From assembly GCF_900143515.1 (NCBI RefSeq), contig NZ_FSQT01000001.1, positions 2,356,001-2,420,000 of the forward strand: 64,000 nt of DNA, read 5' to 3'. Source of the stretch: Micromonospora cremea. GTDB taxonomy: Bacteria > Actinomycetota > Actinomycetes > Mycobacteriales > Micromonosporaceae. The notes under the pieces are model-generated. The model was not told where the DNA came from and ran no database searches. It was given only the letters and a program-made list of their open reading frames with translations. Numbering within the stretch: position 1 is the stretch's first letter; every line of letters starts with the position of its first letter. Of the stretch, positions 30,009 through 45,030 are shown piece by piece. The position numbers and the translations under genes are program-made.

Positions 30009-30902
30009 ATGGACAGGGCCGCACCCCTCTCCGGCATCCACCGCCGGCTGCGCCTCGCCACGGCGATCGGCGCCCTGCTGGCGCTACTCGGCACGTACAT
30101 CGCTTCCACCACCGGCCGGGCCGATGCCGCCCCGGGCGTCAACGTCATCCGGGTCGCCGAGTTCCCCGCCGACTGCACGTACAGCCACCGGCTGCCGGAC
30201 GACCCGATCATCTTCCCCGGCCTGCCCGGGGCCTCGCACATGCACAGCTTCTTCGGCAGCACGGTGACGAACGCCCACACCACGCTCCCCGACCTGGTCA
30301 ACTCTCCGACCACGTGCAATCCGCGGACGGACGTCTCGTCATACTGGGTGCCCACCCTGTACAACAACAACGTGCCGGTCGAGCCGGCCATCTCCACGTT
30401 CTACTACCTGGGTGAGGGCGTACGCGCCGACGTCGTCGCGGCCACCCAGCCCATCCCGCAGGGACTGCGGATCGTGGCGGGCAACGCCAAGGCGACCGGG
30501 CCGAACGAGAGCATCGCCCGCTGGTCCTGCCTGCACGCGGGGCAGGTGCCGCCGTCGAAGAACTTCGTCACCTGCCCGGCCGGGACGATGCTGGAGTCGT
30601 ACCTGGACTTTCCGCAGTGCTGGAACGGCCGCGACCTGGATTCGCCCGACCACAAGAGCCACATGGCGTACCCGGTGAATCAGGCCTGCCCGTCGACGCA
30701 CCCGGTGCACGTGCCGAAGCTGCGGCAGGTGCTGCGGTACCCGGTCAACGGCAACCCGGCGCAGTTCCGGCTGGCCTCGGGTCCGGGCTACACGATGCAC
30801 GGTGACTTCTTCAACGCCTGGCCGGTGGCGGAGATGGCACGCCGCGTCCAGGACTGCATCCGTCCGGTCATCAAGTGCGGGCACGACGGCCGGCCGATCT
30901 GA
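30009..30902 (+). CDS. Secreted DUF1996 domain protein
   Basis: A 297-residue protein with an N-terminal signal (LRLATAIGALLALLGTYIAS, cleavage near ADA). The DUF1996 fold is shown by SHMHSFFGSTVTNAHTT, SSYWVPTLYNN, SIARWSCL, LDFPQCWNGRDLDSPDHKSHMAYP and TMHGDFFNAW. Such proteins occur in fungi and actinomycetes, often with carbohydrate-binding or glycosidase genes, but no activity is known. The LacI-type operator at its promoter agrees with sugar-dependent expression. Start 30009 is chosen because it opens the signal peptide; the upstream open frame covers the operator. Confidence 0.85.
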   Translation: MDRAAPLSGIHRRLRLATAIGALLALLGTYIASTTGRADAAPGVNVIRVAEFPADCTYSHRLPDDPIIFPGLPGASHMHSFFGSTVTNAHTTLPDLVNSPTTCNPRTDVSSYWVPTLYNNNVPVEPAISTFYYLGEGVRADVVAATQPIPQGLRIVAGNAKATGPNESIARWSCLHAGQVPPSKNFVTCPAGTMLESYLDFPQCWNGRDLDSPDHKSHMAYPVNQACPSTHPVHVPKLRQVLRYPVNGNPAQFRLASGPGYTMHGDFFNAWPVAEMARRVQDCIRPVIKCGHDGRPI

Positions 30903-30923
30903 GCCGACTCGTTCGCACCCGAG

Positions 30924-30950
30924 GGCGGGCCCGGTCACGCCGGGCCCGCC
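30924..30950 (+). terminator. Hairpin between the DUF1996 and DUF305 genes
   Basis: A perfect 11-base stem (GGCGGGCCCGG at 30924-30934 with 30940-30950) and a TCACG loop, 21 bases after the DUF1996 stop and 24 bases before the next start. It could attenuate rather than fully stop read-through. Confidence 0.6.
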
Positions 30951-30973
30951 GCCCCGGGCGGAAAGGAGGCCGG

Positions 30974-31651
30974 ATGCGGGCTCTCGTCGCCGCACCGTCC
31001 GCTCTGCTCGTCGCGGTCCTGTTCGTCGCCGGCTGCGCTGCCGGGTCACCAGACGCCGCTGGCACCACCCCGCCGTCCGCGACGGCGCCACCGGCAGCCA
31101 CACGGCCGAGCGCCGCCGCGTCACCCACGGGTACGGCCGGTCCGTTCAGCGCCACCGACATCGCCTGGCTCCAGCTGACCGTGGCCATGGCCGATCGGCT
31201 GCTGCCGGTGCTCGATCTGATGCCGGCCCGGACCACCGACCCGGCGTGGCGGCGTCTGGCCGCCCAGGTCGAGGCCACCCACCGCGCCGACCTGACCCGG
31301 TCCCGCCGGCTGCTGGGCGAATCCGGCGGGCCGGTGACCAACCCGCACGAGGGCCACGACATGCCGGGCATGATCACGGCCGAGGAGCTGGCCGCGCTGC
31401 GGGCTGCCACCGGGAAGCCGTTTCACCGGCTGCTCGCCGGGCACCTGCGTGCGCACCTGACGCAGTCGGTCCGGATCGCCGCCGCGGAGCAGCGGGGCGG
31501 GGTCCACCCTGCGACCACCGCGTTGGCCGCGGCCGTGGTCCGAGGCGGCACCGCCGAACTCGCGCGGCTCGGCCGGCTCGTCCCGCCGCCGACGGTCACC
31601 CCGGCGGCGCAACCGCCAGCGGGCATTGCCGGCGACGCTCAGGCGGCGTAG
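30974..31651 (+). CDS. DUF305 family lipoprotein
   Basis: A 225-residue protein. The signal peptide ends in a lipobox (VLFVAGC), so it is probably lipid-anchored outside the membrane. A Pro/Ala/Thr-rich linker is followed by a DUF305 ferritin-like helical domain: DIAWLQLTVAMADRLLPVLDL, ATHRADLTRSRRLLGESG, HEGHDMPGMITAEELAALRAATG and HLRAHLTQSVRIAAAEQRGG. The usual DUF305 HHxxA motif is weakened, but H-E-G-H-D-M-P-G-M remains and may bind copper. AAAGGAGG precedes the ATG. Its last 13 bases overlap the convergent lyase gene. Confidence 0.82.
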   Translation: MRALVAAPSALLVAVLFVAGCAAGSPDAAGTTPPSATAPPAATRPSAAASPTGTAGPFSATDIAWLQLTVAMADRLLPVLDLMPARTTDPAWRRLAAQVEATHRADLTRSRRLLGESGGPVTNPHEGHDMPGMITAEELAALRAATGKPFHRLLAGHLRAHLTQSVRIAAAEQRGGVHPATTALAAAVVRGGTAELARLGRLVPPPTVTPAAQPPAGIAGDAQAA

Positions 31652-32460
31652 CGGGCGGCCAGGTCCACGGTGCGCCGGGCTGCGGCGACCATCGCCCGGT
31701 CGGCGAAGCGGCCGTCGGGCAGCACCACGGTGCCCGAATCCCGCCGTTGCGCCTCGGCCACCGCGGCCAGCAGCTCCGCGGCCCGGGCCACCTCCCGGTC
31801 GGCCGGCCGGAACGCCTCGACGATCACCGGAAGCTGGCGCGGGTGGATCGCCGTGCGGCCGAGGAAGCCGAGCCGTCGACCCACCGCGCAGGAGGCGGCC
31901 AGCCCGGCGACGTCGGCGACGTTCGCGTACACCGACATCGCCGGCGGGACCAGGCCGGCGGCGCGGGCCGCCACCACCACCCGGCCGCGCGCCCAGAGCA
32001 ATCCGTCGTCGTCGCTCACTCCGAGGTCCGAGCGGAGGTCGGCCTCACCGAGCCCGATCGACGCCACCGCGGGGTGGGCGGACGCGATCGGGTACGCGGC
32101 CTCCAGCCCGAGCGCCGACTCGACCAGCGGGTGCAGCGGCACGTCGACCCGGTCGGCGAGCGCCGCCACCGTCGCCGCCGACTCCACCTTCGGCAGCCGC
32201 AGCCCCGCCAGCCCGCGACGACCGGACACCGCCGCCAGGTCGGCATCGACGTCCGGCCCGGTCAGCTCGTTGACCCGGACCTGCACCGGTACCGGGTGCG
32301 CCTCGGAGAGGAACTCGGCGACCGCGTCCCGGGCGTACGCCTTGCGCCCGGCGACGACGGCGTCCTCTAGGTCGAGGATGACGGCGTCGGCACCGGAGGC
32401 GACCGCCTTGGCGAACCGGTCCGGGCGGTCACCGGGCACGTAGAGCCAGCTGAGCAGCAT
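31639..32460 (-). CDS. HpcH/HpaI-CitE family CoA-ester lyase
   Basis: A 273-residue TIM-barrel protein. WLYVPGDRPDRFAKAVASGADAVILDLEDAV is the CitE N-terminal signature. LRLPKVESA and SIGLGEADLRSDLG hold the Mg2+-binding Glu/Asp residues, and GRTAIHPRQLPVIVEAF is the C-terminal acyl-CoA motif. Stand-alone CitE-like proteins of this length, such as mycobacterial Rv2498c, cleave beta-hydroxyacyl-CoA substrates such as HMG-CoA or citramalyl-CoA rather than citrate. It is the last gene of the long leftward operon. Its ATG overlaps the stop of the CaiB-type gene (TGATG), so it should act on the CoA ester made by that transferase. The exact substrate is unknown. Confidence 0.88.
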   Translation of the reverse strand: MLLSWLYVPGDRPDRFAKAVASGADAVILDLEDAVVAGRKAYARDAVAEFLSEAHPVPVQVRVNELTGPDVDADLAAVSGRRGLAGLRLPKVESAATVAALADRVDVPLHPLVESALGLEAAYPIASAHPAVASIGLGEADLRSDLGVSDDDGLLWARGRVVVAARAAGLVPPAMSVYANVADVAGLAASCAVGRRLGFLGRTAIHPRQLPVIVEAFRPADREVARAAELLAAVAEAQRRDSGTVVLPDGRFADRAMVAAARRTVDLAARYAA

Positions 32461-33647
32461 CAGAGCACTCCCCGCTCGCGCAACGCGGCCAGCTCGTCGG
32501 CGCTGAGGCCGAGCGCGCCGAAGACCGCGTCGGTGTCCTGGCCGTGCCGCCGGCCGGCGTGGCGGATCTCCCCCGGGGTGTCCGTGAGCCGGAACGGCAC
32601 GTTCTGCATCCGCACCTCGCCCAACTCCTCGTCCGGGACGCTGCGCACGGTGCCCAGCGCCGCGTACTGCGGGTCGGCGAGGATGTCCCGCACGTCGTAG
32701 ACCGGCGCGACCGCCGCCTGGGCCGCTTCGAACGCGGCCACCACCTCGTCCCGGTCCCGCTTCGCCACCCAGGCGCTCACTGCGGCGTCCAACTCGTCGG
32801 CGTGCGCGGCCCGGCCGCTGCCGGTGGCGAACCACGGCTCGTCGATCAGCTCGGGTCGGCCGATCAGCCGCAGTACCCGCTCGGCGATGCTCTGCGCGCT
32901 GGTGGAGACGGCCACCCAGCGCCCGTCCGCGCACCGGTACGTGTTGCGCGGGGCGTTGTTGTTGGATCGGTTGCCCAGCCGGGGCTGGATGTAGCCGAGC
33001 TGGTCGTACCAGGTGATCTGTGGGCCGAGCATCGCCATGATCGGCTCGATGATGGCCAGGTCCACCACCTGCCCGGCGCCGGTGGCGTCCCGGGCCCGCA
33101 GGGCGAGCATCACCGCGTACGCGGCGGCGAGCGCGGTCACCGAGTCGGCCAGCCCGAACGGGGGCAGGGTCGGTGGGCCGTCCGGTTCCCCGGTGGCCGC
33201 GGCGAAGCCGCTCATCGCCTCGGCGAGGGTGCCGAAGCCGGGCCGGCGGGCGTACGGGCCGACCTGCCCGAATCCGCTGATCCGGGTGATCACCAACCGG
33301 GGGTTGACCTCGTGCAGCTCGGCCGGGCCGAGGCCCCACCGCTCCAGCGTGCCGGGGCGGAAGTTCTCCACCAGCACGTCGGCGTCGGTGAGCAGCCGGC
33401 GTAGCAGCGCGGCGCCGTCCGGATCGGACAGGTTGAGGGTGACCGTCCGCTTGTTGCGGCCGAGCACCTTCCACCAGAGCCCGACGCCGTCCCTGGCCGG
33501 ACCGTGGCCCCGGGACGGGTCCGGCTTGGCCGGGTGCTCCACCTTGACCACGTCGGCGCCGAAGTCGCCGAGGAACGCCGCAGCGAGCGGCCCGGCGAAG
33601 AGGGTGGCCAAGTCGACGACCTTGATCCCGTCCAGGGGTGCGGTCAC
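32460..33647 (-). CDS. CaiB/BaiF family (class III) CoA transferase
   Basis: A 395-residue protein, GTG start. N-terminal VVDLATLFAGPLAAAFLGDFGADVVKVEHP is the family signature. The middle has FRPGTLERWGLGPAEL. Asp168 in LPPFGLADSVTALAAAYAVMLALRARD is the likely catalytic aspartate, and RNTYRCADGRWVAVSTSAQ follows. These enzymes move CoA between carboxylic acids. Its start overlaps the upstream glycosidase-like gene by 4 bases (GTGA), and its stop overlaps the CitE gene. Together they suggest activation of a carboxylic acid followed by C-C cleavage, which is unusual inside a sugar operon. Confidence 0.9.
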   Translation of the reverse strand: MTAPLDGIKVVDLATLFAGPLAAAFLGDFGADVVKVEHPAKPDPSRGHGPARDGVGLWWKVLGRNKRTVTLNLSDPDGAALLRRLLTDADVLVENFRPGTLERWGLGPAELHEVNPRLVITRISGFGQVGPYARRPGFGTLAEAMSGFAAATGEPDGPPTLPPFGLADSVTALAAAYAVMLALRARDATGAGQVVDLAIIEPIMAMLGPQITWYDQLGYIQPRLGNRSNNNAPRNTYRCADGRWVAVSTSAQSIAERVLRLIGRPELIDEPWFATGSGRAAHADELDAAVSAWVAKRDRDEVVAAFEAAQAAVAPVYDVRDILADPQYAALGTVRSVPDEELGEVRMQNVPFRLTDTPGEIRHAGRRHGQDTDAVFGALGLSADELAALRERGVL

Positions 33648-35614
33648 CGGGTCACCTCCGCCGCCGCATCCGGGTCGGACACCAGGTCCGCGGCGCAGCG
33701 GAAGCCCACCTGGTCGGAGCGGGTGAGCCCGGCACCGGTCAGCAGCAGCTTCACCGAGACGTCCGCCGGCTGTGGGCCGCCGTCGAGGTACCAGTCGGAG
33801 CCGTCCGCACGGTAGTCCGCGCCGCCCTTGAGGATGGCGAACCGGGTACGACCGTCGGAGTGCTCGCTCTCGGTCAGGTTCCAAACCAGCGGTTCGCGGC
33901 GGACGAGCAGCCCCGCCTCGGCGGCCACCTGCCACTCGTCCTCGGTGGGCAGCCGCAGCCCGGCCCACGCCGCGTACGCCCGGGCGTCGGCCAGCTCCAC
34001 CCCGGTGACCGGCGCGCCGGCCGGCCCGCGCCCCGCGGTGAACCGTTCGGGGCGCACCGGGCGGTAGCCGGTGGCTCGCAGGAACTCGGCGTACTCGCCG
34101 TGGGTGACCTCGTGGGTCGCGATGGCGAACCGGCCGAGCCGGACGTTGCGGCGCAGCGTGCCGGTGTGGTGCAGCCGGGGCGGCAGCGGCTTCCACTCGT
34201 CGACGTAGGGCGCCTCGCCGTACAGCCCGCTCTCCCGTACCCGGTGCCGGACCGCCAGGTTCCGCCGGCCGGCCTCGACGGCTGCCATGCCTCGCGGCAG
34301 CTGCGGCCGGGGCGCCCACGGGGTCCGGACGCGCACCGCGGCGCGGGCCGGGAAGGACGGGTCGCCGGTCGGTGGCTCGTGCCGCTGTACGACGGCGTCG
34401 GTCACCACCACGGCGGCGATGGCGCCGGCCGGCAGCGGGCCGCCCACCGCCAGTCGACCGTCACCGGTCTCGGTGACGCTCAGCTCGGCGCCGGTGACCA
34501 GGTCGACGAAGCGTCGGCCGGCCCGGACGTCGGTGACCAGCCACGGCCCGTCGTGGTCCGCGCCCCGGTTCACCACCGTCCACAGTGGCTCGTTCTCGTG
34601 CGTCCAGCGCGACGCGTACACCTGGCCCGCGCCGGGGTGGTCGGCGAGAGGAACCCAGTCCTCGGCGCGCAACCACGCGGCGTGGCTGGTCTGCACCCGG
34701 CGCATCGCCCGCAGCACCGCCCGGTCCCGGTCGTTCCAGCCGACCCAGACGCCGAAGACGCTCTCCCACACCAGCATCCCGACGCCGTTGAGCCAGGCGG
34801 AGTGCAACTCGTCGAGGTGGTCGCGGTGCCAGCGGCGGGTGTGGTGCAGCACGTGTCGCCGCTCGAACCACTTCGCCCGCAGCACACCGGGGACCTCGGA
34901 GTCGGCGAACCACTGCGCCCAGGACATCGCGTGGTCGGCGATCCGGGCCAGCGGGACGCGGCTCTCGCCTTCGAGGACCATGCCGGGGCGAATTGCGTCC
35001 AGCGCGGCGCGCAGTTCGCCGGCGCCCTCCTTCAGGGTGTCCAGGAAGACCCCGTCGACGCCGAGCTTGCCGGCCAGGGCCGCGACCTCCTCGGCGTCGC
35101 TACCCGCCTCCCGGCGGGTGCCGGTGTCCCAGGGGTTGTAGTCGATGAAGACCCGCACCCCCCGCTCCTGGAACGCCCGCACCACCTCGGGCAGCTCCGG
35201 CACGTCCCGGTACCAGTCGAACTGGTTGCGGTCGTCCAGGCCGATCACGGGGTACGCGTGCCAGAGCACCACCCCGTCGAAGCCCCCGAAGTCCCGTCCG
35301 GCCGCGTCGAGGAACTCGTCGACGGTGAAGACGCCGCGCTCGTGGTCGTAGAGCGCCTCGTCCCAGAGCCACGCCAGGCACACGTTGAAGCAGTCGCCGG
35401 CGATCTCGTCGTAGTGGGCGCCGGTGTAGCCGATGCGCTCGCGGGCGTCGGTCCGCCAGCGGGTGAGCTGCTCCCGCCAGGCCGGCCAGTCGGCCGGCTG
35501 TGCCGGTGCGGCGAAGATCTTCGCCTCGTCCAGGGTGGTCAGGTCGGCGTGCCCGCCGAGCGGCACCTCGGTCGGCCGGTCGATCGGTCGCGGGACGTAC
35601 GGATTGAAGCTCAC
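33644..35614 (-). CDS. Glycosidase-like TIM-barrel protein fused to a C-terminal FGE/SUMF1-like domain
   Basis: A 656-residue cytoplasmic protein, GTG start. Residues about 1-360 look like a glycoside-hydrolase barrel: GFDGVVLWHAYPVIGLDDRN, VRVFIDYNPWDTGTRRE, LGVDGVFLDTLKEG (possible nucleophile Asp), MVLEGESRVP (possible acid Glu) and MLVWESVFGVWVGW. A beta domain follows (about 370-450). The last 170 residues match the formylglycine-generating-enzyme-like fold (FAIATHEVTHGEYAEFLRATGY, LRLPTEDEWQVAAEAG, ILKGGADYR, SDQVGFRCA). The FGE catalytic cysteines are not visible, so that domain may bind sugar or protein. It overlaps ribokinase and CaiB by 4 bases each. Substrate unknown. Confidence 0.75.
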   Translation of the reverse strand: MSFNPYVPRPIDRPTEVPLGGHADLTTLDEAKIFAAPAQPADWPAWREQLTRWRTDARERIGYTGAHYDEIAGDCFNVCLAWLWDEALYDHERGVFTVDEFLDAAGRDFGGFDGVVLWHAYPVIGLDDRNQFDWYRDVPELPEVVRAFQERGVRVFIDYNPWDTGTRREAGSDAEEVAALAGKLGVDGVFLDTLKEGAGELRAALDAIRPGMVLEGESRVPLARIADHAMSWAQWFADSEVPGVLRAKWFERRHVLHHTRRWHRDHLDELHSAWLNGVGMLVWESVFGVWVGWNDRDRAVLRAMRRVQTSHAAWLRAEDWVPLADHPGAGQVYASRWTHENEPLWTVVNRGADHDGPWLVTDVRAGRRFVDLVTGAELSVTETGDGRLAVGGPLPAGAIAAVVVTDAVVQRHEPPTGDPSFPARAAVRVRTPWAPRPQLPRGMAAVEAGRRNLAVRHRVRESGLYGEAPYVDEWKPLPPRLHHTGTLRRNVRLGRFAIATHEVTHGEYAEFLRATGYRPVRPERFTAGRGPAGAPVTGVELADARAYAAWAGLRLPTEDEWQVAAEAGLLVRREPLVWNLTESEHSDGRTRFAILKGGADYRADGSDWYLDGGPQPADVSVKLLLTGAGLTRSDQVGFRCAADLVSDPDAAAEVTR

Positions 35615-36549
35615 GGGGTACCTCGGTAGGTCGCGTCGTAGAGGGCGTCGATGGCGGACCGCTCGGGCAGGGCGGTGGACGCGCCGGGCCGCTGGGCGCA
35701 GGCCGCGCCGGCGGCGCACGCCCAGCGCAGGCTCGCCATGACGGTGTCTTCGGTGGTGGCGCCGCCGCGCTCGGCCCAGCCGACGGCGAGCGCCCCGGTG
35801 AAGGCGTCGCCCGCGGCGGTGGTGTCCACCGCGTCGATGCGCGGGGCCGGGACCGCCAGGCGCAGACCACGCCGGTCGGCGTACGCGGCACCGCGCGCGC
35901 CGCGGGTCAGCACCACCCGGGGCACCAGCTCCAGCAGGGCGTCGAGCAGCACCGACGGGTCGTCGGAGAAGACCCCGGCCACGACCGCCGCCTCGTGTTC
36001 GTTGACCACCAGCACGTCGACCAGGTCGAGCAGCTCCGTCGGCAGGATCGCGGCCGGTGCGGCGTTCAACACGACGGTCGTCCCCTCGGCCCGGGCCCAG
36101 TCGGCCGCCCGGACCACGGCGGCCAGCGGCACCTCCAACTGGAGCAGCAGCACGTCCGCCGCGGCGATCGTCGCCCGGTTGTCGGCGTCCAGCTCGGTCA
36201 ACGTGCCGTTGGCGCCGGGCGCGACGACGATGAAGTTCTCCGCGTCCCGGTCGACGGCGATCAGCGCGATGCCGGAGGGACCGGCGACGGTCCGCAGGCC
36301 GCGAACGTCCACCCCCGCGCCGGCCAGGCTCGCCCGCATCTGCGTACCGAACTCGTCGTCGCCGACCGCGCCCACGAAGTCGCAGGCGGCACCGGCCCGT
36401 GCGGCGGCGACCGCCTGGTTGGCGCCCTTGCCGCCGGGCACGGTCCGGAAGTTCTCGCCGAGCACCGTCTCGCCGGGGCGGGGCAGCCGCGACGCCGTCA
36501 CCACCAGGTCCAGGTTGCTGCTGCCCACCACCGCCACTCGCGCGCTCAT
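35611..36549 (-). CDS. rbsK: Ribokinase / PfkB-family sugar kinase
   Basis: A 312-residue ribokinase-like enzyme. N-terminal VVGSSNLDLVVTASRLPRPGETVLG leads to the substrate motif VPGGKGANQAVAAARAGA. The C-terminal ATP/anion-hole motif is DAVDTTAAGDAFTGALAVG, with the catalytic Asp in AAGD. Overall spacing and the GGKGANQA motif are those of true ribokinases rather than fructokinases. It should phosphorylate D-ribose or a close sugar released by the glycohydrolases in the same operon. It starts 32 bases after the second ADP-ribosylglycohydrolase gene and overlaps the next gene by 4 bases. Confidence 0.88.
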   Translation of the reverse strand: MSARVAVVGSSNLDLVVTASRLPRPGETVLGENFRTVPGGKGANQAVAAARAGAACDFVGAVGDDEFGTQMRASLAGAGVDVRGLRTVAGPSGIALIAVDRDAENFIVVAPGANGTLTELDADNRATIAAADVLLLQLEVPLAAVVRAADWARAEGTTVVLNAAPAAILPTELLDLVDVLVVNEHEAAVVAGVFSDDPSVLLDALLELVPRVVLTRGARGAAYADRRGLRLAVPAPRIDAVDTTAAGDAFTGALAVGWAERGGATTEDTVMASLRWACAAGAACAQRPGASTALPERSAIDALYDATYRGTP

Positions 36550-36580
36550 GCCGTGCTCCCTTCCGTCCCCCCGTGCTGCG

Positions 36581-37933
36581 TCATGACCCGCTCCCCGCCT
36601 GGGCCAGGGCCCGGGTCCGCTCCGCCAGCTCGTCGAAGCCGATCCCGTCGAAACCGGCGATGCTGCTGGCCAGCCGGTTGCGCAGCGGGGCGACCCACCG
36701 CGCCGGCAGCCCGCACGCCCCGGTGAGCGCCCCGGTCACCGCACCGACCGTCGCGCCGGTCGAATCGGTGTCCCAACCGCCGCTGACCACCGCGGTGATG
36801 GACCGCTCCAGGTCGCCGCGGCCGTACGCCAGCGCGGCGGCCACCAGCGCGGCGTTGTTGCGCACGTGCACCCAGTGCAGGTGACCGTGCCGGGCGTAGA
36901 GCTCGTCGACCACGCGTTCCCAGTCGTCGGCTCCCGCGCCGAGGGCGCGCGCTTCACGGACCGTGGCCGCGAACCGACTGCGCGGCGGCAGCACCGCCTC
37001 GGCCGCGTCCAGCACCTCGTCGACGGTGTCCGCGACCGGCGCGGCGGCGGCCAGGGCGGCGGCCCAGAGCGCGCCGTGCACGCCACCCCGGACGTGGCTG
37101 ACGGCGGCGTCCCTGAGGGCCAGCTCGGCGGCCCGGTCCGGCCGGCCGGGGTTGACCCAGCCGTACACGTCGGTGCGGATCTGCGCACCGATCCATTCCC
37201 GGAACGGGTTGTGCCGGCGGGCGCTCTGCGGTGGCGCGAGCCCGAGCAGCAGGTTCCGGTACGCCACCCGTTCGGCGGTGAAGACCCGCCCACCGGGCAG
37301 CCAGTCCAGCCAGGCCTGCGCCACGTCGGCGCTGGTGAAGCCCCGCCCGTGGGTCTCCAGCACCCGCAGGGCCAGCAGCGCGTAGTTCAGGTCGTCGTCC
37401 TCCGGCATGCCGTCGATGTTCTCGGCGAGGCTGGTCGGCGCGCTGCGCCGGTTCCACGGCCAGCGGGCGGCGACGTCGGCCGGCAGCCCCTTCGCGGTGA
37501 ACCAGTCGTGCAACGGCCACCGGCCGGTGGCGGTGAGGATCTCCCGGATCCCCTCCCGGGGGATCTTCTCCACCGGCTTGCCGAGCAGGCAGCCGACCGC
37601 CCGGCCGAGCCACGCGCCGTGCAGCCGGTCGTGCGTCACGTTCGTCGGCAGCGACCAGGTCGCCGGCCACTCGGCCCGGAGCGCGGGCAGGTCGTCCGGC
37701 TCGTCCTCGGTGGCGACGGCGGGCAGCGCGTCGGCGGCGTCCAGCAGCTCCGCCGCGAGCGCCCGCAGCGCGGGCGAGGCCGGGGTCGGCGACGCTCCGC
37801 TGACCGGTGGGGTCGGGTCCCCGCCGGCCTCCGCCCACCGCCGGGCGAGGGCCGCCACGTCGCGGCCCTCGTCCCGGCTGGCCGCCAACTCGTGGGGCAG
37901 CAGGTCCTCCGGCTGGACCCAGGTGATCCTCAC
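36581..37933 (-). CDS. ADP-ribosylglycohydrolase family protein (GRAxG/EDDDLNY subtype)
   Basis: A 450-residue protein, GTG start. After an N-terminal region of about 90 residues comes the ARH fold: LHGAWLGRAVGCLLGKPVE, ENIDGMPEDDDLNYALLALRVLE, AERVAYRNLLLGLAPP and the C-terminal metal motif SGGWDTDSTGATVGAVTGAL. The N-terminal G-D-A-x-G aspartate of classical members is replaced here by Arg in GRAVG, and the T-D-D-T block reads E-D-D-D, which marks a separate subfamily. Classical enzymes cleave N- or O-ribosyl bonds. It overlaps the other ARH gene by 4 bases. The substrate is probably the imported riboside (inference). Confidence 0.85.
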   Translation of the reverse strand: MRITWVQPEDLLPHELAASRDEGRDVAALARRWAEAGGDPTPPVSGASPTPASPALRALAAELLDAADALPAVATEDEPDDLPALRAEWPATWSLPTNVTHDRLHGAWLGRAVGCLLGKPVEKIPREGIREILTATGRWPLHDWFTAKGLPADVAARWPWNRRSAPTSLAENIDGMPEDDDLNYALLALRVLETHGRGFTSADVAQAWLDWLPGGRVFTAERVAYRNLLLGLAPPQSARRHNPFREWIGAQIRTDVYGWVNPGRPDRAAELALRDAAVSHVRGGVHGALWAAALAAAAPVADTVDEVLDAAEAVLPPRSRFAATVREARALGAGADDWERVVDELYARHGHLHWVHVRNNAALVAAALAYGRGDLERSITAVVSGGWDTDSTGATVGAVTGALTGACGLPARWVAPLRNRLASSIAGFDGIGFDELAERTRALAQAGSGS

Positions 37934-39114
37934 CGGGCCGACTCCCCGTCCGCTGCGTCCGGCACGCCCCGCACCGCGCCACCGGCCAGGCCGGCGAAGC
38001 GCTCCGCGCGTCGGGTGAACCGGGCCTGGTCCCGCTCGAAGACCTCGCCGGCCACCGCCGCGAGGACCCGCGCCGGCTCCACCAGGTCGGTCCTGGAGGC
38101 GGTGGCGACCACCTCGGACCACTCCGCGGGCACCGCGGCGGCGCCGCCGAGCGCCCCGGCGATGGCGGCGGCCATGGTCGCGGTCGAGTCGGCGTCGCGG
38201 CCGTAGTTCACCGCGCCGAGCACCGCCGGGCGGAACTCGCCGCCGGCCACCACGAGCATGCCGATGGCCACCGGCAGCTCCTCGATGGCGTGCAGCCGGC
38301 TGGGCCGCCGCGCACCGAGGCCCGGACTCCGGTACTCCTCCCCCACCGTGTCGTAGGCGGCGACCGCCGCGCGCAGCGCCGGGATCGCCTGCTTCCAGTC
38401 GTGGTGGCTCCGGGCCTCCTTGACCACCGCGTCGATGGCCGCCCGGGTACCGTCGCGGGCCAGGTCCAGCGCCGCGGTGACGACATCCTCGACGCCCGCG
38501 CCGGGGGTGGCCGCCGCGGCGACCGCCGCCGCGAAGACGGCGGCGGCCTCCCGCCCGTAGCTGTGCTGGTGCGCCCCGGCGATCTCCACCGCCTCGGCGT
38601 ACGCCCCGGCCGGATCGCCCGCGTTGACGATGCCGACCGGGGCCATGTACATGGCCGCGCCACAGTTGACGATGTTGCCGACCCCGGCCTCGCGCGGGTC
38701 CGCGTGGGCGTGGTGCAGGCGGGTGACCAGCCACCGCTCGGCGGCCGCGAGCCGGTGGAAGGTCACCCCCTCCCGCTCCAGGTCGGGGATGTAGACCACC
38801 CGCTCGATCAGATCGGGGACCAGCAGCTCCACCACGTCGTACGCGTCGAGGTGGTCGCGTTTGGCCGCGTAGGCGCGGACCAGGGCGTGGGTCATCAACG
38901 TGTCGTCGGTGATGTGCCCGTCGCCCTTGTGGTACGGCGCGAGCGGTCGCGCGGTGGCCCAGTCGGCGTGGTACGGGGGCACGATGCCCTCGACCCAGCC
39001 GCCGAAGCGCGCACGGATCTGCTCCGGTAGTGCCGTCTCGGTGGCGCCGCCGAGGGCGTCTCCGACCGCGGCGCCGACCAGGCAGCCGACCGATGTGTCG
39101 AGCAAGAGTGACAT
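37930..39114 (-). CDS. ADP-ribosylglycohydrolase family protein (classical subtype)
   Basis: A 394-residue protein. It has the classical ARH signatures: VGCLVGAAVGDALGGATE at the N-terminus, the metal ligands T69-D70-D71 in GDGHITDDTLMTHAL, and GRDADSTATMAAAIAGALGG at the C-terminus with its two aspartates. The binuclear Mg2+ site therefore looks intact. ARH enzymes hydrolyse the bond between ribose C1'' and an acceptor. The start MSLLLDTSVG at 39114 lies 2 bases after the stop of the binding-protein gene, so they are co-translated. Acting in a sugar-uptake operon, it more likely cleaves an imported riboside than ADP-ribosylated protein (inference). Confidence 0.88.
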   Translation of the reverse strand: MSLLLDTSVGCLVGAAVGDALGGATETALPEQIRARFGGWVEGIVPPYHADWATARPLAPYHKGDGHITDDTLMTHALVRAYAAKRDHLDAYDVVELLVPDLIERVVYIPDLEREGVTFHRLAAAERWLVTRLHHAHADPREAGVGNIVNCGAAMYMAPVGIVNAGDPAGAYAEAVEIAGAHQHSYGREAAAVFAAAVAAAATPGAGVEDVVTAALDLARDGTRAAIDAVVKEARSHHDWKQAIPALRAAVAAYDTVGEEYRSPGLGARRPSRLHAIEELPVAIGMLVVAGGEFRPAVLGAVNYGRDADSTATMAAAIAGALGGAAAVPAEWSEVVATASRTDLVEPARVLAAVAGEVFERDQARFTRRAERFAGLAGGAVRGVPDAADGESAR

Positions 39115-39116
39115 GT

Positions 39117-40409
39117 CTACCTCAGAACCTGCTTGCCACCGTCGACCAGCTGCGTACCGAGCTGATCGAGGGTGATCTTGTTGGCGAAGTACTGCTGGAG
39201 AGCCGGGGTGGCGTACTTGGTCTTCCACTCCGGGTAGCCGTCGGCCTGCTGGAACGGGGCGACGGTCAGGTCCGCGGCGCTGGCCGCGGCGACGTCCCAG
39301 CCCTGCTTGCCGGCGGTGAGCTTGACCAGTTCCTCGTTGGCCTGCTTGCCGGTCGGGACCAGCCAGTCACCCTTGGCCAGCGCGGCCATGTTCGTCGGGT
39401 TCAGGAAGTACTCGAGGAACTGCGCGGCCTGCTTCTTGTGCTTGCTGTCCTCGGAGACCGAGAGCGTCTGCGGGTTCGCGGCCTGCTTGGCGGAGAGGCC
39501 CTTGACCGGCGGCAGGGTGACCCACTCGAAGCCGGCCGGCGCCTGCTCGACCATCTGCTGACGCAGCGACACCGAGCCGGGCAGCATGGCGTACTTGCCA
39601 CCGAAGAAGCCGGGCAGGGTGTCCGCGCCGCTCATGCCGAGCGCCTCCGGGGACGCGGACTTCGCGGTGTAGATCATGTCGTGGATCCGCTTCGGGATCT
39701 CCTTCTCGGCGTCACCGACCTTGACCTCGGTGCGCCCGCCGTCGGTGTAGAAGAACTTCCCGTCGTAGTTGAGCGCCAGGTTGAGCACCCGGTTGGTCGG
39801 CGACTTCAGCGCCCAGGCCACCCCGTACTGGCCGGGCTTGGTGAGCTTCTGCGCGTGGCCCTGGAACTCGTCCCAGGTCCAGCCGCCGTTGGCTGGCGGC
39901 ACCGCGACGCCGGCGGCGTCGAGCATCTTCTTGTTGGCGATGACGACCTGCGACTCCAGCAGGAACGGCACGCCGGCGACCTTGCCGTCGAAGGTGGCGG
40001 TGTCCCAGACGCCCTGGTCGATCTGGCCCTTCAGGTCGCTTGAGACGAGCCCGGAGAGGTCGGCCAGGTAGCCCTGCTTGCTGAACTCGCCGATCGCGGA
40101 CGCCTCGTAGTGCAGGATGTCCGGTGCGTCGCCGCCCTCGAAGGAGGTCAGCAGCTGGTCGTGCACCGAGTTCCAGTCACCCTGGACGTACTCGACCTGG
40201 ATGTCGGGGTGCTCGGCGTTCCACTTGGCGACGAGGTCCTTGTTGACCTGCAGCGACTCCTTCTGCCAGGCGAGGCTGAGGAAACGCAGTTTGACCGGGC
40301 CGGACGTGGCCTCGTCGCCGCCGCCGTCACCGCACGCGGCGAGCGCGCCGAGGCCGACGACCGCGACCGCGGTGGCCGCGGCCAGTCGACGGAATCGGGT
40401 ACGGAGCAT
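39117..40409 (-). CDS. ABC transporter sugar-binding lipoprotein (SBP family 1)
   Basis: A 430-residue extracellular solute-binding protein. The signal peptide ends in a lipobox (GALAAC, Cys about 26). Typical cluster B (MalE-like) features follow: WNAEHPDIQVEYVQGDWNSVHDQLLTSFEGGDAPDILH, VPFLLESQVVIANKKMLDAAGV, WDEFQGHAQKLT and LPPVKGLSAKQAANPQTLSVS. The PDI/GG motif after the first strand matches oligosaccharide binders. It captures the substrate for the two permeases encoded just upstream. No ATPase gene is in the operon, so a shared MsiK-type ATPase encoded elsewhere is expected. Confidence 0.92.
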   Translation of the reverse strand: MLRTRFRRLAAATAVAVVGLGALAACGDGGGDEATSGPVKLRFLSLAWQKESLQVNKDLVAKWNAEHPDIQVEYVQGDWNSVHDQLLTSFEGGDAPDILHYEASAIGEFSKQGYLADLSGLVSSDLKGQIDQGVWDTATFDGKVAGVPFLLESQVVIANKKMLDAAGVAVPPANGGWTWDEFQGHAQKLTKPGQYGVAWALKSPTNRVLNLALNYDGKFFYTDGGRTEVKVGDAEKEIPKRIHDMIYTAKSASPEALGMSGADTLPGFFGGKYAMLPGSVSLRQQMVEQAPAGFEWVTLPPVKGLSAKQAANPQTLSVSEDSKHKKQAAQFLEYFLNPTNMAALAKGDWLVPTGKQANEELVKLTAGKQGWDVAAASAADLTVAPFQQADGYPEWKTKYATPALQQYFANKITLDQLGTQLVDGGKQVLR

Positions 40410-40444
40410 TGGGGGTACCTCCTTGGTGGTGGTTGGGGGACGGT

Positions 40445-41284
40445 TCAGCCCTTGACCGCGCCGGCGAGCGACCCGGACGAGAGCCGGCGCTGCATGAACG
40501 CGAAGAAGATCAGGCTGGGCAGCGTGGCCAGCAGCGAGCCGGCGGCCAGCGGCCCGAGTCGGGCGGTGCCCTCGATGCCGACGAACCGGGCCAGCGCCAC
40601 CGGCAGGGTGGCCAGCTCCGGGGTCTTGATCAGCACCAGCGCGAAGAAGAACTCGTTCCAGGCCGAGATGAAGGAGAAGAGCGCGGTCGCGACCAGGCCC
40701 GGGGCGAGCAGCGGGAAGACCACCCGGCGCAGGACCTGCACCCGGCTCGCCCCGTCCACCGACGCGGCCTCCTCCAGCTCGCGAGGAATGTTGCGGACGA
40801 AGCCCTGCAGCATCCACAGCGCGAACGGCAGCGCCCAGACCACGTAGATCAGCACCAGCCCGGCGTGCGTGTTGGCCAGGCCGATCTGCCGCAGCACCAG
40901 GAAGATCGGGATGATCAGCAGCACGAACGGGAAGAGCTGCGACAGCAGCACCCAGCCCAGCGCCGCGGTGCCGAGCTTGGAACGGAACCGGGCCAGCGCG
41001 TACGAGGCCGGCATGGCGACCAGCACGGTCAGCACCGCCGAGGCGAGCGAGACCTGGAGGCTGTTCAGCGCCGCCCGGCCCAGCTCCTGCTCGGTGAAGG
41101 CCTGGACGAAGTTCTGCACGGTCGGGTCGCTCGGGATCAGCGTGGGGTGCAGCCGCACCAGCTCCCGCGGCGGCTTGAACGCCGTCGAGAGCAGCCAGAT
41201 CAGCGGGAACCCGAGGAAGATCAGGTAGCCGGTGAGCGCCAGGTACTGCAACGCCCGCCCGGTACGGCTCGGCTTTCCGAACAT
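40445..41284 (-). CDS. Carbohydrate ABC transporter permease (MalG/UgpE type)
   Basis: A 279-residue membrane protein with six helices. The cytoplasmic EAA loop ELEEAASVDGASRVQVLRRVVFPLLAPG is the ATPase docking site. N-terminal FPLIWLLSTAFKPPREL and the end FMQRRLSSGSLAGAVKG are typical of MalG-type subunits. It starts 1 base after the stop of the first permease gene. It imports the substrate together with that permease and the binding lipoprotein. Confidence 0.93.
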   Translation of the reverse strand: MFGKPSRTGRALQYLALTGYLIFLGFPLIWLLSTAFKPPRELVRLHPTLIPSDPTVQNFVQAFTEQELGRAALNSLQVSLASAVLTVLVAMPASYALARFRSKLGTAALGWVLLSQLFPFVLLIIPIFLVLRQIGLANTHAGLVLIYVVWALPFALWMLQGFVRNIPRELEEAASVDGASRVQVLRRVVFPLLAPGLVATALFSFISAWNEFFFALVLIKTPELATLPVALARFVGIEGTARLGPLAAGSLLATLPSLIFFAFMQRRLSSGSLAGAVKG

Positions 41285-41285
41285 G

Positions 41286-42221
41286 TCAGTTCGCCTCCCT
41301 CAGCCGGCGCCGGAGATAGACGGCGAGCAGCGCGATGATGAGCACGACCATCACGTTGCCGAGCGCGGCGGCGTAGCCGTAGTTGCCGTAGCGGAACGCC
41401 TCCTCGTAGGCGAAGAGCATCGGCAGCATGGTCTTGCCGCCCGGCCCGCCCGCGGTCAGCACGTAGACCAGGCCGAACGAGTTGAAGTTCCAGATGAAGT
41501 CCAGCGACGTGATCGCGACGATCACCGGGGCCAGGGCGGGCAGCGTGACGTGCCGGAACCGGTGCCAGGTGCTGGCCCCGTCCACCGCGGCCGCCTCGTG
41601 CAGCTCGCGGCCCACCCCTTGGAGGCCGGCGAGCAGGACGACGGTGGTCTGCGGCATGCCGGCCCAGACCCCGACCAGGATCACGGCGGGCAGTGCCGTG
41701 CTGAAGTCGCCGAGCCAGTTGGTCCGTAGCCCGTCGGCGCCGATCCGGTGGAAGAACTCGTTGAGCAGGCCGGCGTCCGGGTGGTAGACGAGCTTCCAGA
41801 GGATGCCGACCACGACCGGCGGCATCGCCCACGGCACCACGGCGAGCACCCGGGCCACGCCCCGGAACCGCAGCTGCTGGTTGAGCAGCAGGGCCAGCCC
41901 GAGTGCGAGCAGGAACTGGAGCACCGTCACGCCGACCGCCCAGAGCAGCCCGATCTTGAACGAGTTCCAGAACAGCTCGTCGCCGAGGAGTTCCCGGTAG
42001 TTGGCCAGGCCGGTGAAGCTGACCTCGACGTTGCGCCCGGCCCGGGCGTCGGTGAAGCCGAGGTAGATCCCCCGCAGCAGCGGAAACACCGACAGCACCA
42101 GGATCGGCAGCAGCGACGGCAGGAGCAGCAGGTAGATGGCGGTCCGGTCGGAGCGGAACCGGTTCGGCCGGCGGGCCGGTCCGGCCCGTTCGACGTCCGG
42201 CCGCTCAGCCAGCGTGGTCAT
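41286..42221 (-). CDS. Carbohydrate ABC transporter permease (MalF/UgpA type)
   Basis: A 311-residue membrane protein with six helices. The first helix follows a charged leader (RFRSDRTAIYLLLLPSLLPI). The EAA loop is LHEAAAVDGASTWHRFRHVTLPALAP. FPLLRGIYLGFTDARAG and PVVVGILWKLVYHPDAGLLN are typical of the MalF/UgpA group. The ATG overlaps the LacI gene stop by 4 bases, so regulator and transporter are one transcription unit. Confidence 0.93.
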   Translation of the reverse strand: MTTLAERPDVERAGPARRPNRFRSDRTAIYLLLLPSLLPILVLSVFPLLRGIYLGFTDARAGRNVEVSFTGLANYRELLGDELFWNSFKIGLLWAVGVTVLQFLLALGLALLLNQQLRFRGVARVLAVVPWAMPPVVVGILWKLVYHPDAGLLNEFFHRIGADGLRTNWLGDFSTALPAVILVGVWAGMPQTTVVLLAGLQGVGRELHEAAAVDGASTWHRFRHVTLPALAPVIVAITSLDFIWNFNSFGLVYVLTAGGPGGKTMLPMLFAYEEAFRYGNYGYAAALGNVMVVLIIALLAVYLRRRLREAN

Positions 42222-43309
42222 GCGGTCACCCCTTCGCTGGACGGGTGGGTGGTCGGTGGGCCGGCCGGCCGGGGCGCCGGCAGCGGTGTGCCACTGGACG
42301 CGCGGATGGCGAGGCTCGGTGGCACCTGCTCGCGCCGCGGCGGCAGGGTCGGGTCGGCGATGCGTTGCAGGAGCAGCTCGGCGGCCCGGCGACCGCGCTC
42401 GGTGGAGCCGAGCGAGACGCTGGAGAGCTGGGGAAACATCATCCGGGCGAGCTCGGTGTCGTCCATGCCGACGACGGCGACGTCCTGCGGCACCTGGCGC
42501 CCGGCGGCGAGCAGGGCGTGCAGCGCCCCGACCGCGATGAGGTCGTTGGCGCAGACCAGCGCGTCCGGGTCGGTGCGGGCGAGCAGCCGCTCGGTGGCGG
42601 CCCGGCCGGCGGCGTACTGGAAGTCGCCGACCTCGATCAGGTCCTCGTCGAGAGTGATGTCGTGTCGCGTCAGCGCTGCCCGGAAGCCGGCGTCACGCGC
42701 GGTGCCCGGGACGGTGTCGAGGGGGCCGTTGACGAAGCCGATCCGGCGTCGGCCGCTGGCGACGAGGTGGTCCACGGCCAGCGCCACGCCGTGCCGGGAG
42801 TCGGTACGCACGTTGTCGACCGCGGCGTCCGCGCCGAGCTGGCCGACCACCACCACCGGCACCGGGCTGTCCACCAGCGCGGTCAGGTGGTCGTCGGTGA
42901 CCCGGATCGGCGAGACGATCATCCCGTCCACGTAGCGGTTGGCCAGCCGGCGCAGCAGGGCGGTCTCGTTGTCGATCCGTCCGCCGGTGGCGTGCACCAG
43001 CAGCTGCCGCCCGGAGGAGGCGACCACGGCCTCGATGGCGCGCATCATCTCGACGTAGACCGGGTTGCCGATGTCCTCGACGGCGAGCGCGACGAGGCCG
43101 GTGCGCTGGGACTGCAACGACCGGGCGATCGCGTTCGGCACGTAGCCGACCTCGGCCGCCGCGGCGCGTACCTTGCGGATGGTCTCCGGGCTGCCGCCGA
43201 TGCCGTTGAGCACCCGCGAGGCGGACGCGATGGAGACACCGGCGCGGGCGGCGACCGTGTGCACCGTGGGCCGGCCGTCCGCCGGTTCCTGTAAACGTTT
43301 ACGACCCAC
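42218..43309 (-). CDS. LacI-family transcriptional regulator, first gene of the operon
   Basis: A 363-residue regulator. The helix-turn-helix is PTVHTVAARAGVSIASASRVLNGIGGSPETIRKVRAAA, and the hinge contains PNAIARSLQSQRTGLVAL. The periplasmic-binding-like effector domain continues through VCANDLIAVGALHALLAAG and VVGMDDTELARMMFPQLSSV. GTG 43309 is chosen because GGAGGT (43317-43322 on the reverse strand) lies 7 bases upstream. The longer frame would need a TTG and would run through operator sequences. One operator (43291-43302) lies inside codons 3-6, so strong autoregulation of the whole operon is likely. The effector is probably the imported sugar or ribose. Confidence 0.92.
   Translation of the reverse strand: MGRKRLQEPADGRPTVHTVAARAGVSIASASRVLNGIGGSPETIRKVRAAAAEVGYVPNAIARSLQSQRTGLVALAVEDIGNPVYVEMMRAIEAVVASSGRQLLVHATGGRIDNETALLRRLANRYVDGMIVSPIRVTDDHLTALVDSPVPVVVVGQLGADAAVDNVRTDSRHGVALAVDHLVASGRRRIGFVNGPLDTVPGTARDAGFRAALTRHDITLDEDLIEVGDFQYAAGRAATERLLARTDPDALVCANDLIAVGALHALLAAGRQVPQDVAVVGMDDTELARMMFPQLSSVSLGSTERGRRAAELLLQRIADPTLPPRREQVPPSLAIRASSGTPLPAPRPAGPPTTHPSSEGVTA
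43291..43302. promoter_or_regulatory. LacI operator O1 (perfect palindrome, inside the lacI coding start)
   Basis: GTAAACGTTTAC is a perfect 12-base palindrome with the central CG of LacI/PurR-type sites. It encodes residues 3-6 of the regulator from the chosen GTG start. Confidence 0.7.
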
Positions 43310-43333
43310 GTCCGGCACCTCCACCCGATAGCT

Positions 43334-43345
43334 GTAAACGTTTCC
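43334..43345. promoter_or_regulatory. LacI operator O2 upstream of lacI
   Basis: GTAAACGTTTCC matches O1 at 11 of 12 positions. Its centre lies 43 bases from that of O1, in the 65-base gap before the lacI start, where the promoter should be. Confidence 0.65.
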
Positions 43346-43374
43346 GGGAGTCTGCGCCGCCTGCGGCGGAGAGG

Positions 43375-45030
43375 TCAAGGGCTCGTTACGAAAACGTTTC
43401 CAACAGTGGACGGCTCGACGGCGAGAGCGACCTCACGACCCGGCCACCGGGATCTGAGTCGCCGGTCGTGACTGGCGACGACGATGGCGCCCGGACCGGT
43501 GCCCAGGGCCTCCTCCAGCTCGTCACAGAGCCGCGGGGAGAGATGATTGGTCGGCTCGTCCAGCAGGAGCAGGTCCGGCGGGTCGGCGACGAGCACCGCG
43601 AGGGCGAGCCGACGACGCTGGCCGACCGACAGCTGCGCCACCGGTCGGTCGAGGTCCGCGGGCGCGAGCAGCCCGAGCGACGACAGCGGCACCTCCTCCG
43701 CCCGCTCCGCACCGACGGCCCCGCCGAAGACGTCCCGCGCGGTCCGTAGCGGTTCCTCGAAGGTGGTGTCCTGGGTCAGCAGGCCGACGCGCAGGTCCGG
43801 CCGCCGCCAGAGCACGCCGGTGCCGCTGACCCGCCCGGCGAGGACGGCGAGCAGCGTCGACTTGCCCGCACCGTTCGGGCCGCTCACCAACAGCCGATCG
43901 CTGGCCGTGACCTCGAGGTGCGCCATCGACAGCCGGCCGGCTATCCGCACCCGGTGCATCGTGGCGATCACGTCGTCGCCGGCGCCGGTGGCGAGAACGG
44001 GTGCGTGAAAGCGCAACGGCTCCGGCGGCGCGGCGACCTGATCGCGCTCCAGTGTCTCCAGCCGGCGGGTGGCATCGCGGACGCGGCGGGAGATCTGGTT
44101 CTGCACCCGGCCGGCGGTGTGCCCGTACCCCATCTTCTCGCTGTCGCGCGGACCGCGGCCGGGTGCGACCTGATGCCCGGTCGCGGCCGCGGCCTGACGC
44201 AGGTCGGCGAGCCGCGCCTGCTCGTCGTCGTAGCGTCGGCGCCAGCGCTCGGCCTCGGCGCGTTTCTGCGCCAGATACGCGCTGTAGCCGCCGCCGTAGC
44301 GGACCGGACCCTCGACCGCCGGGTCCAGATCGATGACGTCGGTGCACACCGCGTCCAGGAACGCCCGGTCATGGCTCGCCACCACGACCACTCCGGTCAT
44401 CGCGCGGAGTTGGTCCTCACAGAACGCCGCCGCCGCGTCGTCGAGATGGTTGGTGGGCTCGTCGAGCAGCAGCGCGGCCGGCCGACGGATCAGCATCGCG
44501 GCCAGCGCGAGGCGGCCACGCTGCCCGCCGGACAGCGCGCTCAGCCTCCGATCGTGCGCCAACCCGCCGAGGCCAAGGCCGGCGAGCACCGTCATGGCGC
44601 GCCGGTCGGCGTCCCAGGCGTCACGGTCCTGCGCCCGCTCCAGGGCCTCGCCGTACGCCGCCAGCAGCTGGGCGTGCCGCTCGGTGCCCTCCGGCGCGTC
44701 GCTCAGCGCGGGGCCGAGCCGGTCCAGCTCGGCGAGGTCCGCTCGGACCTCGCGCAGCGCGTCGTCAAGGATCGTGGCGACCGTCGCGGACGGGGCGTAG
44801 GGCATCTCCTGCTGCAGGAAACCGAGGTCCGGCGGACGCGCGACGGTGCCGGAGTCGGGTACGTCGACGCCGGCCAGGACCCGCAACAGCGTCGTCTTGC
44901 CGGTGCCGTTCTCGCCGATCAGGCCGATCCGGTGCCCGGGCGCGGCGGTCAGGGAGACACCGTCGAGCACGCGGCGGTCACCCCGGACGCGCAGCAGATC
45001 ATGGGCGATGAGGGCGGGTCGAACAGACAT
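43375..45030 (-). CDS. ABC-F family ATPase, antibiotic-resistance (ribosome protection) type
   Basis: A 551-residue protein with two ABC nucleotide-binding domains and no membrane segment. Domain 1 has GLIGENGTGKTTLLRVLAG, LSGGQRGRLALAAML and LLLDEPTNHLDD. Domain 2 has LVSGPNGAGKSTLLAVLAG, LSVGQRRRLALAVLV and LLLDEPTNHLS. An Arg/Glu-rich linker (KRAEAERWRRRYDDEQARL) lies between them. This layout matches the OleB/TlrC/VarM-like actinomycete group that displaces drugs from the ribosome. The start MSVRPALIA at 45030 is the first sensible Met. A long GC-rich leader with short ORFs precedes it. It lies between TetR and LacI genes on the same strand. Confidence 0.85.
   Translation of the reverse strand: MSVRPALIAHDLLRVRGDRRVLDGVSLTAAPGHRIGLIGENGTGKTTLLRVLAGVDVPDSGTVARPPDLGFLQQEMPYAPSATVATILDDALREVRADLAELDRLGPALSDAPEGTERHAQLLAAYGEALERAQDRDAWDADRRAMTVLAGLGLGGLAHDRRLSALSGGQRGRLALAAMLIRRPAALLLDEPTNHLDDAAAAFCEDQLRAMTGVVVVASHDRAFLDAVCTDVIDLDPAVEGPVRYGGGYSAYLAQKRAEAERWRRRYDDEQARLADLRQAAAATGHQVAPGRGPRDSEKMGYGHTAGRVQNQISRRVRDATRRLETLERDQVAAPPEPLRFHAPVLATGAGDDVIATMHRVRIAGRLSMAHLEVTASDRLLVSGPNGAGKSTLLAVLAGRVSGTGVLWRRPDLRVGLLTQDTTFEEPLRTARDVFGGAVGAERAEEVPLSSLGLLAPADLDRPVAQLSVGQRRRLALAVLVADPPDLLLLDEPTNHLSPRLCDELEEALGTGPGAIVVASHDRRLRSRWPGREVALAVEPSTVGNVFVTSP
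43390..43401. promoter_or_regulatory. LacI operator O3 inside the end of the ABC-F gene
   Basis: GAAAACGTTTCC shares the AAACGTTT core. Its centre is 56 bases from that of O2, within the last codons of the upstream ABC-F gene, suggesting a looping or auxiliary site. Confidence 0.55.

Follow-up and report, generated by a model that had tools for sequence, protein, structure and literature searches.

Catabolic operons built around CUT1 sugar importers of the ATP-binding cassette (ABC) class are controlled by a LacI repressor, and their ATPase is supplied in trans by a protein of the MsiK type. The degradation of itaconate and citramalate (Ict/Ich/Ccl, RipABC) proceeds through a CoA-transferase and a CitE-type citramalyl-CoA lyase. 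Genes of both kinds, together with two of the ADP-ribosylglycohydrolase (ARH) family, lie in one ten-gene block at 31639-43309 on the minus strand of the window, by which we mean the whole stretch of 64,000 nucleotides analyzed here, positions 2356001-2420000 on contig 1 of the 7.76-Mb genome of Micromonospora cremea. ARH-family genes have been described in two comparable settings. The E. coli yegTUV-yegW (GgaR) system combines a nucleoside-symporter-type transporter, the ARH-family protein YegU, the kinase YegV, and a single-target repressor, and their functions are given as unknown in the accessible part of the report (PMC10819704). In S. coelicolor, SCO2028-2031 are called uncharacterized DraG/ARH homologues and putative ADP-ribosyl hydrolases in the available text of one paper (PMC9411070), and SCO2028-2030 are listed among uncharacterized DraG/ARH homologues in that of another (PMC5087735).

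The ten genes of the Micromonospora block stay together in the same order in many related bacteria. We read the block, with slightly more confidence than doubt, as a catabolic operon under a LacI repressor that has this one target. It would break down an imported glycoside conjugate that contains ribose and also carries or yields a carboxylic acid.

Layout and conservation of the ten-gene block

The genes of the block, in the direction of reading, are as follows:

42218..43309, minus strand: lacI, LacI-family regulator, RbsR/CcpA-like (Pfam, NCBIfam)
41286..42221, minus strand: permA, MalF/UgpA-type permease (Pfam, NCBIfam)
40445..41284, minus strand: permB, MalG-type permease (Pfam, NCBIfam)
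39117..40409, minus strand: SBP, CUT1-type solute-binding protein (Pfam, PDB sequence matches)
37930..39114, minus strand: ARH1, hydrolase of the ARH family with the metal-site motifs TDD and DADS kept
36581..37933, minus strand: ARH2, second ARH-family hydrolase, with an N-terminal extension of ~95 residues and the motifs EDDD and DTDS
35611..36549, minus strand: RbsK, ribokinase-like PfkB kinase (TIGR02152 score)
33644..35614, minus strand: gene 8, predicted amylase-fold TIM barrel and beta domain, fused to a degenerate FGE/EgtB-like domain
32460..33647, minus strand: CoAT, family III CoA-transferase (Pfam, NCBIfam)
31639..32460, minus strand: citE, CitE-type C-C lyase, (citra)malyl-CoA-lyase-like (Pfam, NCBIfam)

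Every gene is an open frame with a proper stop, read from 43309 to 31639, and the Pfam families along the block are LacI/Peripla_BP_3, two BPD_transp_1, SBP_bac_1, two ADP_ribosyl_GH, PfkB, FGE-sulfatase, CoA_transf_3, and HpcH_HpaI. The gene content proposed in the first-pass annotation is thus confirmed on one strand, and the near-continuous junctions that it described, as overlaps or gaps of 1-36 bases, prove slightly tighter: from lacI to citE they measure -4, +1, +35, +2, -4, +31, -4, -4, and -1 bases. This spacing, together with conserved operator-like palindromes in front, supports its suggestion of a single transcript. A simple scan of 30500-44500 found neither terminator-like sites (shuffled sequences gave a mean of 2.0) nor sigma-70-like sites that would split the block, which is weak evidence in a stretch of 70-76% guanine plus cytosine (GC).

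Conservation was followed in 79 loci from one scan of genome contigs with gene 8 as the query, a sample in which Micromonospora and Kribbella predominate. All ten genes occur in the same order, inserted genes being allowed, in 64 of them, representing 18 genus-level groups; because of this, the block is far beyond chance. The remaining 15 comprise six that are cut by contig ends and otherwise in order, and nine that differ (L088, L108, L111, L112, L115, L117, L118, L119, and L120). The same earlier annotation had allowed that the ARH and CoA genes might be occasional passengers; they turn out to be the most widely kept part. In an even sample of the class, gene 8 was found in 18 of 296 genomes, own included, and 16 of the 17 others carry ARH1, ARH2, CoAT, and CitE beside it (some of these 17 are also among the 79 loci). 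Matches were obtained in 44 of 151 genomes of the window's genus, counting its own, of which G1100 and G1154 match only in part or distantly, and in 6 of 111 genomes of the class of Calidithermus, counting the query genome. In the order of a Rhizobiales-labelled genome, the one match among 249 is the query genome itself. The distribution is patchy, not universal.

A second version of the cluster was found with ARH1 in a sample of the phylum, where it matched at E 1e-40 in 10 of 396 genomes, own included. The other nine, which are Streptomyces-like, all carry the order ARHa-ARHb-ARH1-ARH2-CoAT-CitE, with RbsK between ARH2 and CoAT in six, and Pfam confirms the families of both ARHa and ARHb in one of them (L132). 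Since these genomes keep the ARHs, CoAT, and the lyase, and six of nine the kinase, it is these genes and not the importer that form the core. The two additional ARH genes also precede ARH1 in the mapped loci of Jiangella, Phytoactinopolyspora, Haloactinopolyspora, and Pseudonocardia, and in L156 and L158 from the class of Calidithermus. The flanks of the Streptomyces-like cluster, named by eye, are gltB and a VIT-type gene on the one hand and lgt and trpB on the other; from gene numbering and flanking genes, we take this cluster to be SCO2028-SCO2033 of S. coelicolor.

Pairwise distances of the five enzyme genes correlate strongly (r 0.905 to 0.968, with 0 of 300 permutations as high) over 61 aligned rows, the window included and L068, L069, L071, L073, L094, and L117 omitted by choice. 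These values fit joint inheritance; they are uncorrected for shared species history and are not relied on here. Separately, the Micromonospora veneta locus (L065) is a mosaic, in which permA to ARH2 are only 50-68% identical to the window and RbsK to CitE 79-92%, as if the importer and ARH genes had been swapped as a unit. In three Kribbella loci (L095, L099, and L104), a gene that separates ARH1 from ARH2 was considered as part of the pathway and dropped as an interruption, since it lies on the opposite strand and looks by eye like a PhoD-like phosphatase.

Upstream of the block lies a co-directional ABC-F-type ATPase gene (43375-45066, minus strand, 3' end at 43375), and downstream a convergent DUF305 gene (30875-31651, plus strand) runs 13 bases into the end of citE. 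Beyond it stand a DUF1996 gene (29886-30902, plus strand) and an IS605-family TnpB-like gene (28572-29684, plus strand; OrfB_IS605, Cas12f1-like TNB domain), the latter in a stretch of lower GC fraction, 0.67. The window gave no Rfam match at the gathering cut-off and no tRNA.

Regulator, importer and enzymes

The lacI product is of LacI type and stands near the RbsR and CcpA models, below their equivalog cut-offs in NCBIfam. Its start is placed at a GTG at 43309 with GGAGG upstream, and a shorter start at 43264 is possible. Three LacI-type palindromes lie around this start:

43390..43401, no strand assigned: O1, GAAAACGTTTCC on the plus strand, inside the 3' end of the upstream ABC-F-type gene
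43334..43345, no strand assigned: O2, GTAAACGTTTCC
43291..43302, no strand assigned: O3, the perfect palindrome GTAAACGTTTAC, overlapping the first lacI codons if the start is at 43309

O1 recurs at about -138 in most of the Micromonospora loci listed and is absent from the Asanoa loci. At least one such palindrome precedes lacI in 46 of the 57 loci with enough sequence, the other 22 of the 79 being without lacI or its upstream sequence. Searched at up to one mismatch, GTAAACGTTTAC occurs in the whole genome only as O2 and O3, and the reversed control gave none; O1 differs at two bases, and copies like it elsewhere fall outside the scope of that search. The lack of any other genomic copy at this threshold points to a regulator of a single operon.

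The transporter proteins are of the MalEFG/UgpABE kind, and the CUT1 parts in the operon are the SBP and two permeases. A MalK-type ATPase is absent from the operon, so the importer needs one encoded elsewhere; seven matches elsewhere in the genome share 42-56% identity with the ATPase of L088, a locus from a Rhizobiales-labelled metagenome-assembled genome whose ATPase gene sits inside the cluster. The SBP has 486 sequence matches in the PDB, of which the best reaches 78 bits (5f7v), and no single ligand is indicated.

ARH1 and ARH2 match the Pfam family ADP_ribosyl_GH at 1e-46 and 6e-50, respectively. The residues T69-D70-D71, D307, and D309 of ARH1 are invariant in 24 aligned rows, as are E178-D179-D180, D388, and D390 of ARH2 in 26, where the Thr of the motif is replaced by Glu; these TDD and DxD residues presumably form a two-metal site. 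The predicted fold of ARH2 resembles ARH3, with the metal ligands kept. By Pfam score and metal-site residues, and for ARH2 by predicted fold, both are members of the ARH/DraG family. They match solved ARH-family proteins only distantly in sequence (best E 1e-9 for ARH1 and 3e-6 for ARH2), and both score below the DraG and Tri1 equivalog cut-offs of NCBIfam.

Gene 8 is a fusion. Its residues ~45-407 are predicted to form a (beta/alpha)8 amylase-fold barrel with a beta domain, in which Asp192 follows strand 4 and Glu217 follows strand 5, as in amylase-like glycoside hydrolases (GH13 and relatives). Its residues ~440-645 form a degenerate FGE/EgtB-like domain, and the Pfam FGE-sulfatase match covers the C-terminal part only. 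The hallmark of FGE is its copper-site cysteines and that of EgtB is the His triad in its DinB domain; no conserved Cys pair was found in the KGG...GSDWY region in an alignment of 30 rows, and no DinB domain was matched by Pfam. No Pfam match precedes residue 490, nor does any Pfam family cover the N-terminal part, and the only PDB matches by sequence are FGE/EgtB relatives past residue 520 and a single designed protein (E 0.017). The N-terminal part is glycosidase-like in its predicted fold, and gene 8 may represent a glycoside hydrolase family that is still unassigned. Its nearest named relatives belong to Micromonospora. Two distant relatives in the same genus, at 48% over residues 9-404 (G1154, contig 1, 5785534-5786715) and 35% over residues 31-575 (G1059, contig 47, 12914-14650), are possibly other members of that family.

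RbsK scores 273.9 bits against TIGR02152, for which the ribokinase cut-off is 299.65. Its residues N12, D14, G40-K41, N44, E139, and D248, which we take to be the sugar-site and catalytic positions of ribokinases, are each kept in at least 97% of 74 rows. CoAT matches Pfam CoA_transf_3 at 3e-124; its nearest specific model is succinate-glutarate CoA-transferase, with a score below the cut-off, and its PDB matches include succinate-hydroxymethylglutarate CoA-transferase (9br7). At the Asp169 position, presumably that of the catalytic Asp of family III enzymes, CoAT has Glu200 (numbered from the second codon) in all 75 rows and all 13 additional relatives. This replacement was entertained as a special feature and dropped, since the five distinct paralogue rows from the same genome have Glu in two, Asp in two, and Ser in one, which marks it as a subtype trait. 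The models nearest to the lyase are those of citrate and citramalyl-CoA lyases, with RipC_Ccl among the best, and it falls below the equivalog cut-offs for RipC/Ccl (144.3 vs 375 bits) and CitE (144.0 vs 443.4 bits).

Proposed pathway and rival explanations

The proposed pathway starts from which genes are present, how they are linked and conserved, the operator motif, the folds predicted for gene 8 and ARH2, and the catalytic residues retained; from these, we infer the substrate class, the reactions and their order, the repression, and the inducer. The conjugate would be imported by SBP-permA-permB, powered by a shared ATPase encoded elsewhere. Its glycosidic bonds would then be cut by the amylase-fold enzyme of gene 8 and the two ARHs, of which the latter would release a ribofuranosyl unit, and the ribokinase-like kinase would trap ribose as ribose 5-phosphate. 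The CoA-transferase would activate the acid, and the CitE-type lyase would split the product, probably to acetyl-CoA and a keto acid, as for citramalyl- and malyl-CoA. LacI would act as a repressor at the three palindromes and be released on binding the substrate or one of its breakdown products.

Since ARH1-ARH2-CoAT-CitE is the most widely kept part, a single pathway probably covers both the release of sugar by the ARHs and the breakdown of the acid via CoA. A similar pathway had been sketched in the first-pass annotation, and it is supported in part, by the linkage, the joint conservation of the ARH and CoA genes, the catalytic residues retained in the ARHs, kinase, and lyase, and the glycosidase-like predicted fold in gene 8; the riboside as substrate, the acid as its aglycone, and the order of steps go beyond what was observed. 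Its remark that no described pathway has this exact composition holds for the open-licence literature, where no fitting description of the ten-gene set was found; PMC8562490 proved unrelated.

Several observations weigh against this reading. The kinase is missing from the block in six of the nine exceptional loci (L088, L112, L115, L117, L119, and L120), of which L112 and L115 begin at a contig end and Calidithermus L117 has a kinase beside the block in divergent orientation; it is also absent from the small-genome locus L041, from L156 and L158, and from three of the nine Streptomyces-like loci. Ribose is therefore likely, not proven, as the released sugar. Only the kinase and gene 8 are retained in L108 and L111 and gene 8 alone in L120 and L040 (the latter being the remaining genome of the class sample), and L118 is without CoAT and CitE. 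No importer, LacI, or gene 8 was seen in the 16-20-kb stretches around the Streptomyces-like clusters, which makes nutrient import a weaker reading for that version. Eleven of the 57 loci (eight Kribbella, two Nocardioides, and Calidithermus) lack a LacI-type palindrome upstream of lacI. None of the kinase, lyase, and CoA-transferase reaches the curated cut-off of any specific NCBIfam model listed, and residue conservation does not fix substrate specificity. Versions that lack the kinase or the importer call for a cautious reading.

The rival that survives best, which we hold unlikely and still worth weighing, is that the acid is not a glycosidic aglycone and is instead an acyl group ester-linked to the sugar, e.g., hydroxy-dicarboxylic or hydroxymethylglutarate (HMG)-like, and freed by an esterase. 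A PF00756-type esterase with beta-propeller repeats, whose N-terminus looks secreted by eye, belongs to the cluster or adjoins it in at least 23 loci from seven genera, a lower bound owing to lossy choice of open reading frames, with Pfam tested on one locus. It stands between gene 8 and CoAT in L049, L060, L068, L071, L072, and L080 and after citE in L109, and esterase matches, one confirmed by Pfam, flank L156 on both sides. The succinate-glutarate model and the 9br7 match of CoAT point the same way. However, the window's operon has no esterase, and its own genome gave no match at 1e-10 in a search that had no positive control. As the esterase joins the cluster in many relatives, an ester bond in the natural substrate is plausible, and the acid may be attached through such a bond instead of a glycosidic one.

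Slightly less probable is that the ARHs act on furanosides of a different cis-2,3-diol sugar, e.g., apiose, or a non-ribose N-glycoside, with the kinase phosphorylating that sugar or being accessory. Such a role would suit the sub-threshold score of the kinase, its absence from several clusters, and the distance of both ARHs from solved proteins, whereas the near-invariant residues presumed to bind the sugar in ribokinases speak for ribose.

We consider it distinctly improbable that the block salvages ADP-ribosyl or NAD-derived conjugates, with the ARHs as true ADP-ribosyl hydrolases and the kinase recycling ribose. The ARH3-like predicted fold of ARH2 and the treatment of S. coelicolor SCO2028-2031 as putative ADP-ribosyl hydrolases favor this, but the ten genes include no Nudix, phosphodiesterase, or nucleosidase family by Pfam, the importer is of the sugar type, and the CoA-transferase and lyase would be left without a role. 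In addition, SCO2028 and SCO2030 had no detectable activity on U-alpha-ADP-ribose, the one substrate concerned, according to the accessible part of the study (PMC13036486). It is hardly credible that the transcript joins units of little relation to each other by chance or for the sake of regulation only, with no common pathway. Although parts are missing from L108, L111, L118, L120, and L040, 64 of 79 loci keep the order, and the ARH-CoAT-CitE core persists in all nine Streptomyces-like loci, where importer and regulator are absent.

Among more specific substrates for the preferred catabolic operon, poly-ADP-ribose fragments, apiosides, alpha-ribazole, bacillithiol-like malate glycosides, and HMG esters were not adopted for lack of evidence. 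More broadly, and with somewhat more doubt than confidence, the cluster could represent a widespread undescribed pathway for common, unrecognized ribose-containing conjugates, in which the ARHs would be dietary ribosidases, gene 8 would found a new glycoside hydrolase family and work alongside them, and SCO2028-2031 would belong to this metabolism and not to ADP-ribosylation signaling. ARH proteins are commonly interpreted as enzymes that remove ADP-ribosylation. Their conserved linkage here, two to four at a time, with a sugar importer, a ribokinase-like kinase, and an acid-degrading pair opens another role to direct testing. It also bears on several uncharacterized ARHs of the model organism S. 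coelicolor, and the substrate, if found, would name a potential carbon source for many soil and plant-associated actinomycetes.

Comparison with known systems

The CoA-transferase and CitE-type lyase recall itaconate and citramalate degradation, with RipC_Ccl among the best models for the lyase; however, the ten genes include no hydratase, both proteins score below the specific cut-offs, and here the pair is linked to sugar genes. The four consecutive ARH genes SCO2028-SCO2031 of S. coelicolor resemble ARHa-ARHb-ARH1-ARH2, followed by CoAT-CitE, in the Streptomyces-like loci; the S. coelicolor cluster differs from the window's operon in having no importer, LacI, or gene 8, and its published reading, in the portions of the papers available, is putative ADP-ribosyl hydrolysis. 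As far as the accessible part of its description goes, E. coli yegTUV likewise places a transporter, an ARH-family gene, and a sugar kinase in one operon under a single-target repressor, but its importer is of the major facilitator superfamily and not ABC, its repressor is GntR and not LacI, and CoA-transferase, lyase, and glycosidase are missing; it offers an earlier example of an ARH gene that shares an operon with transporter and kinase genes. With the CUT1 sugar-ABC operons, the block shares an SBP, two permeases, LacI, a sugar kinase, a glycosidase-fold enzyme, and seven similar ATPases encoded elsewhere, and it departs from them by its ARH hydrolases, unassigned glycosidase-FGE fusion, CoA-transferase, and C-C lyase. 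We class it as a variant of the sugar-ABC catabolic operon.

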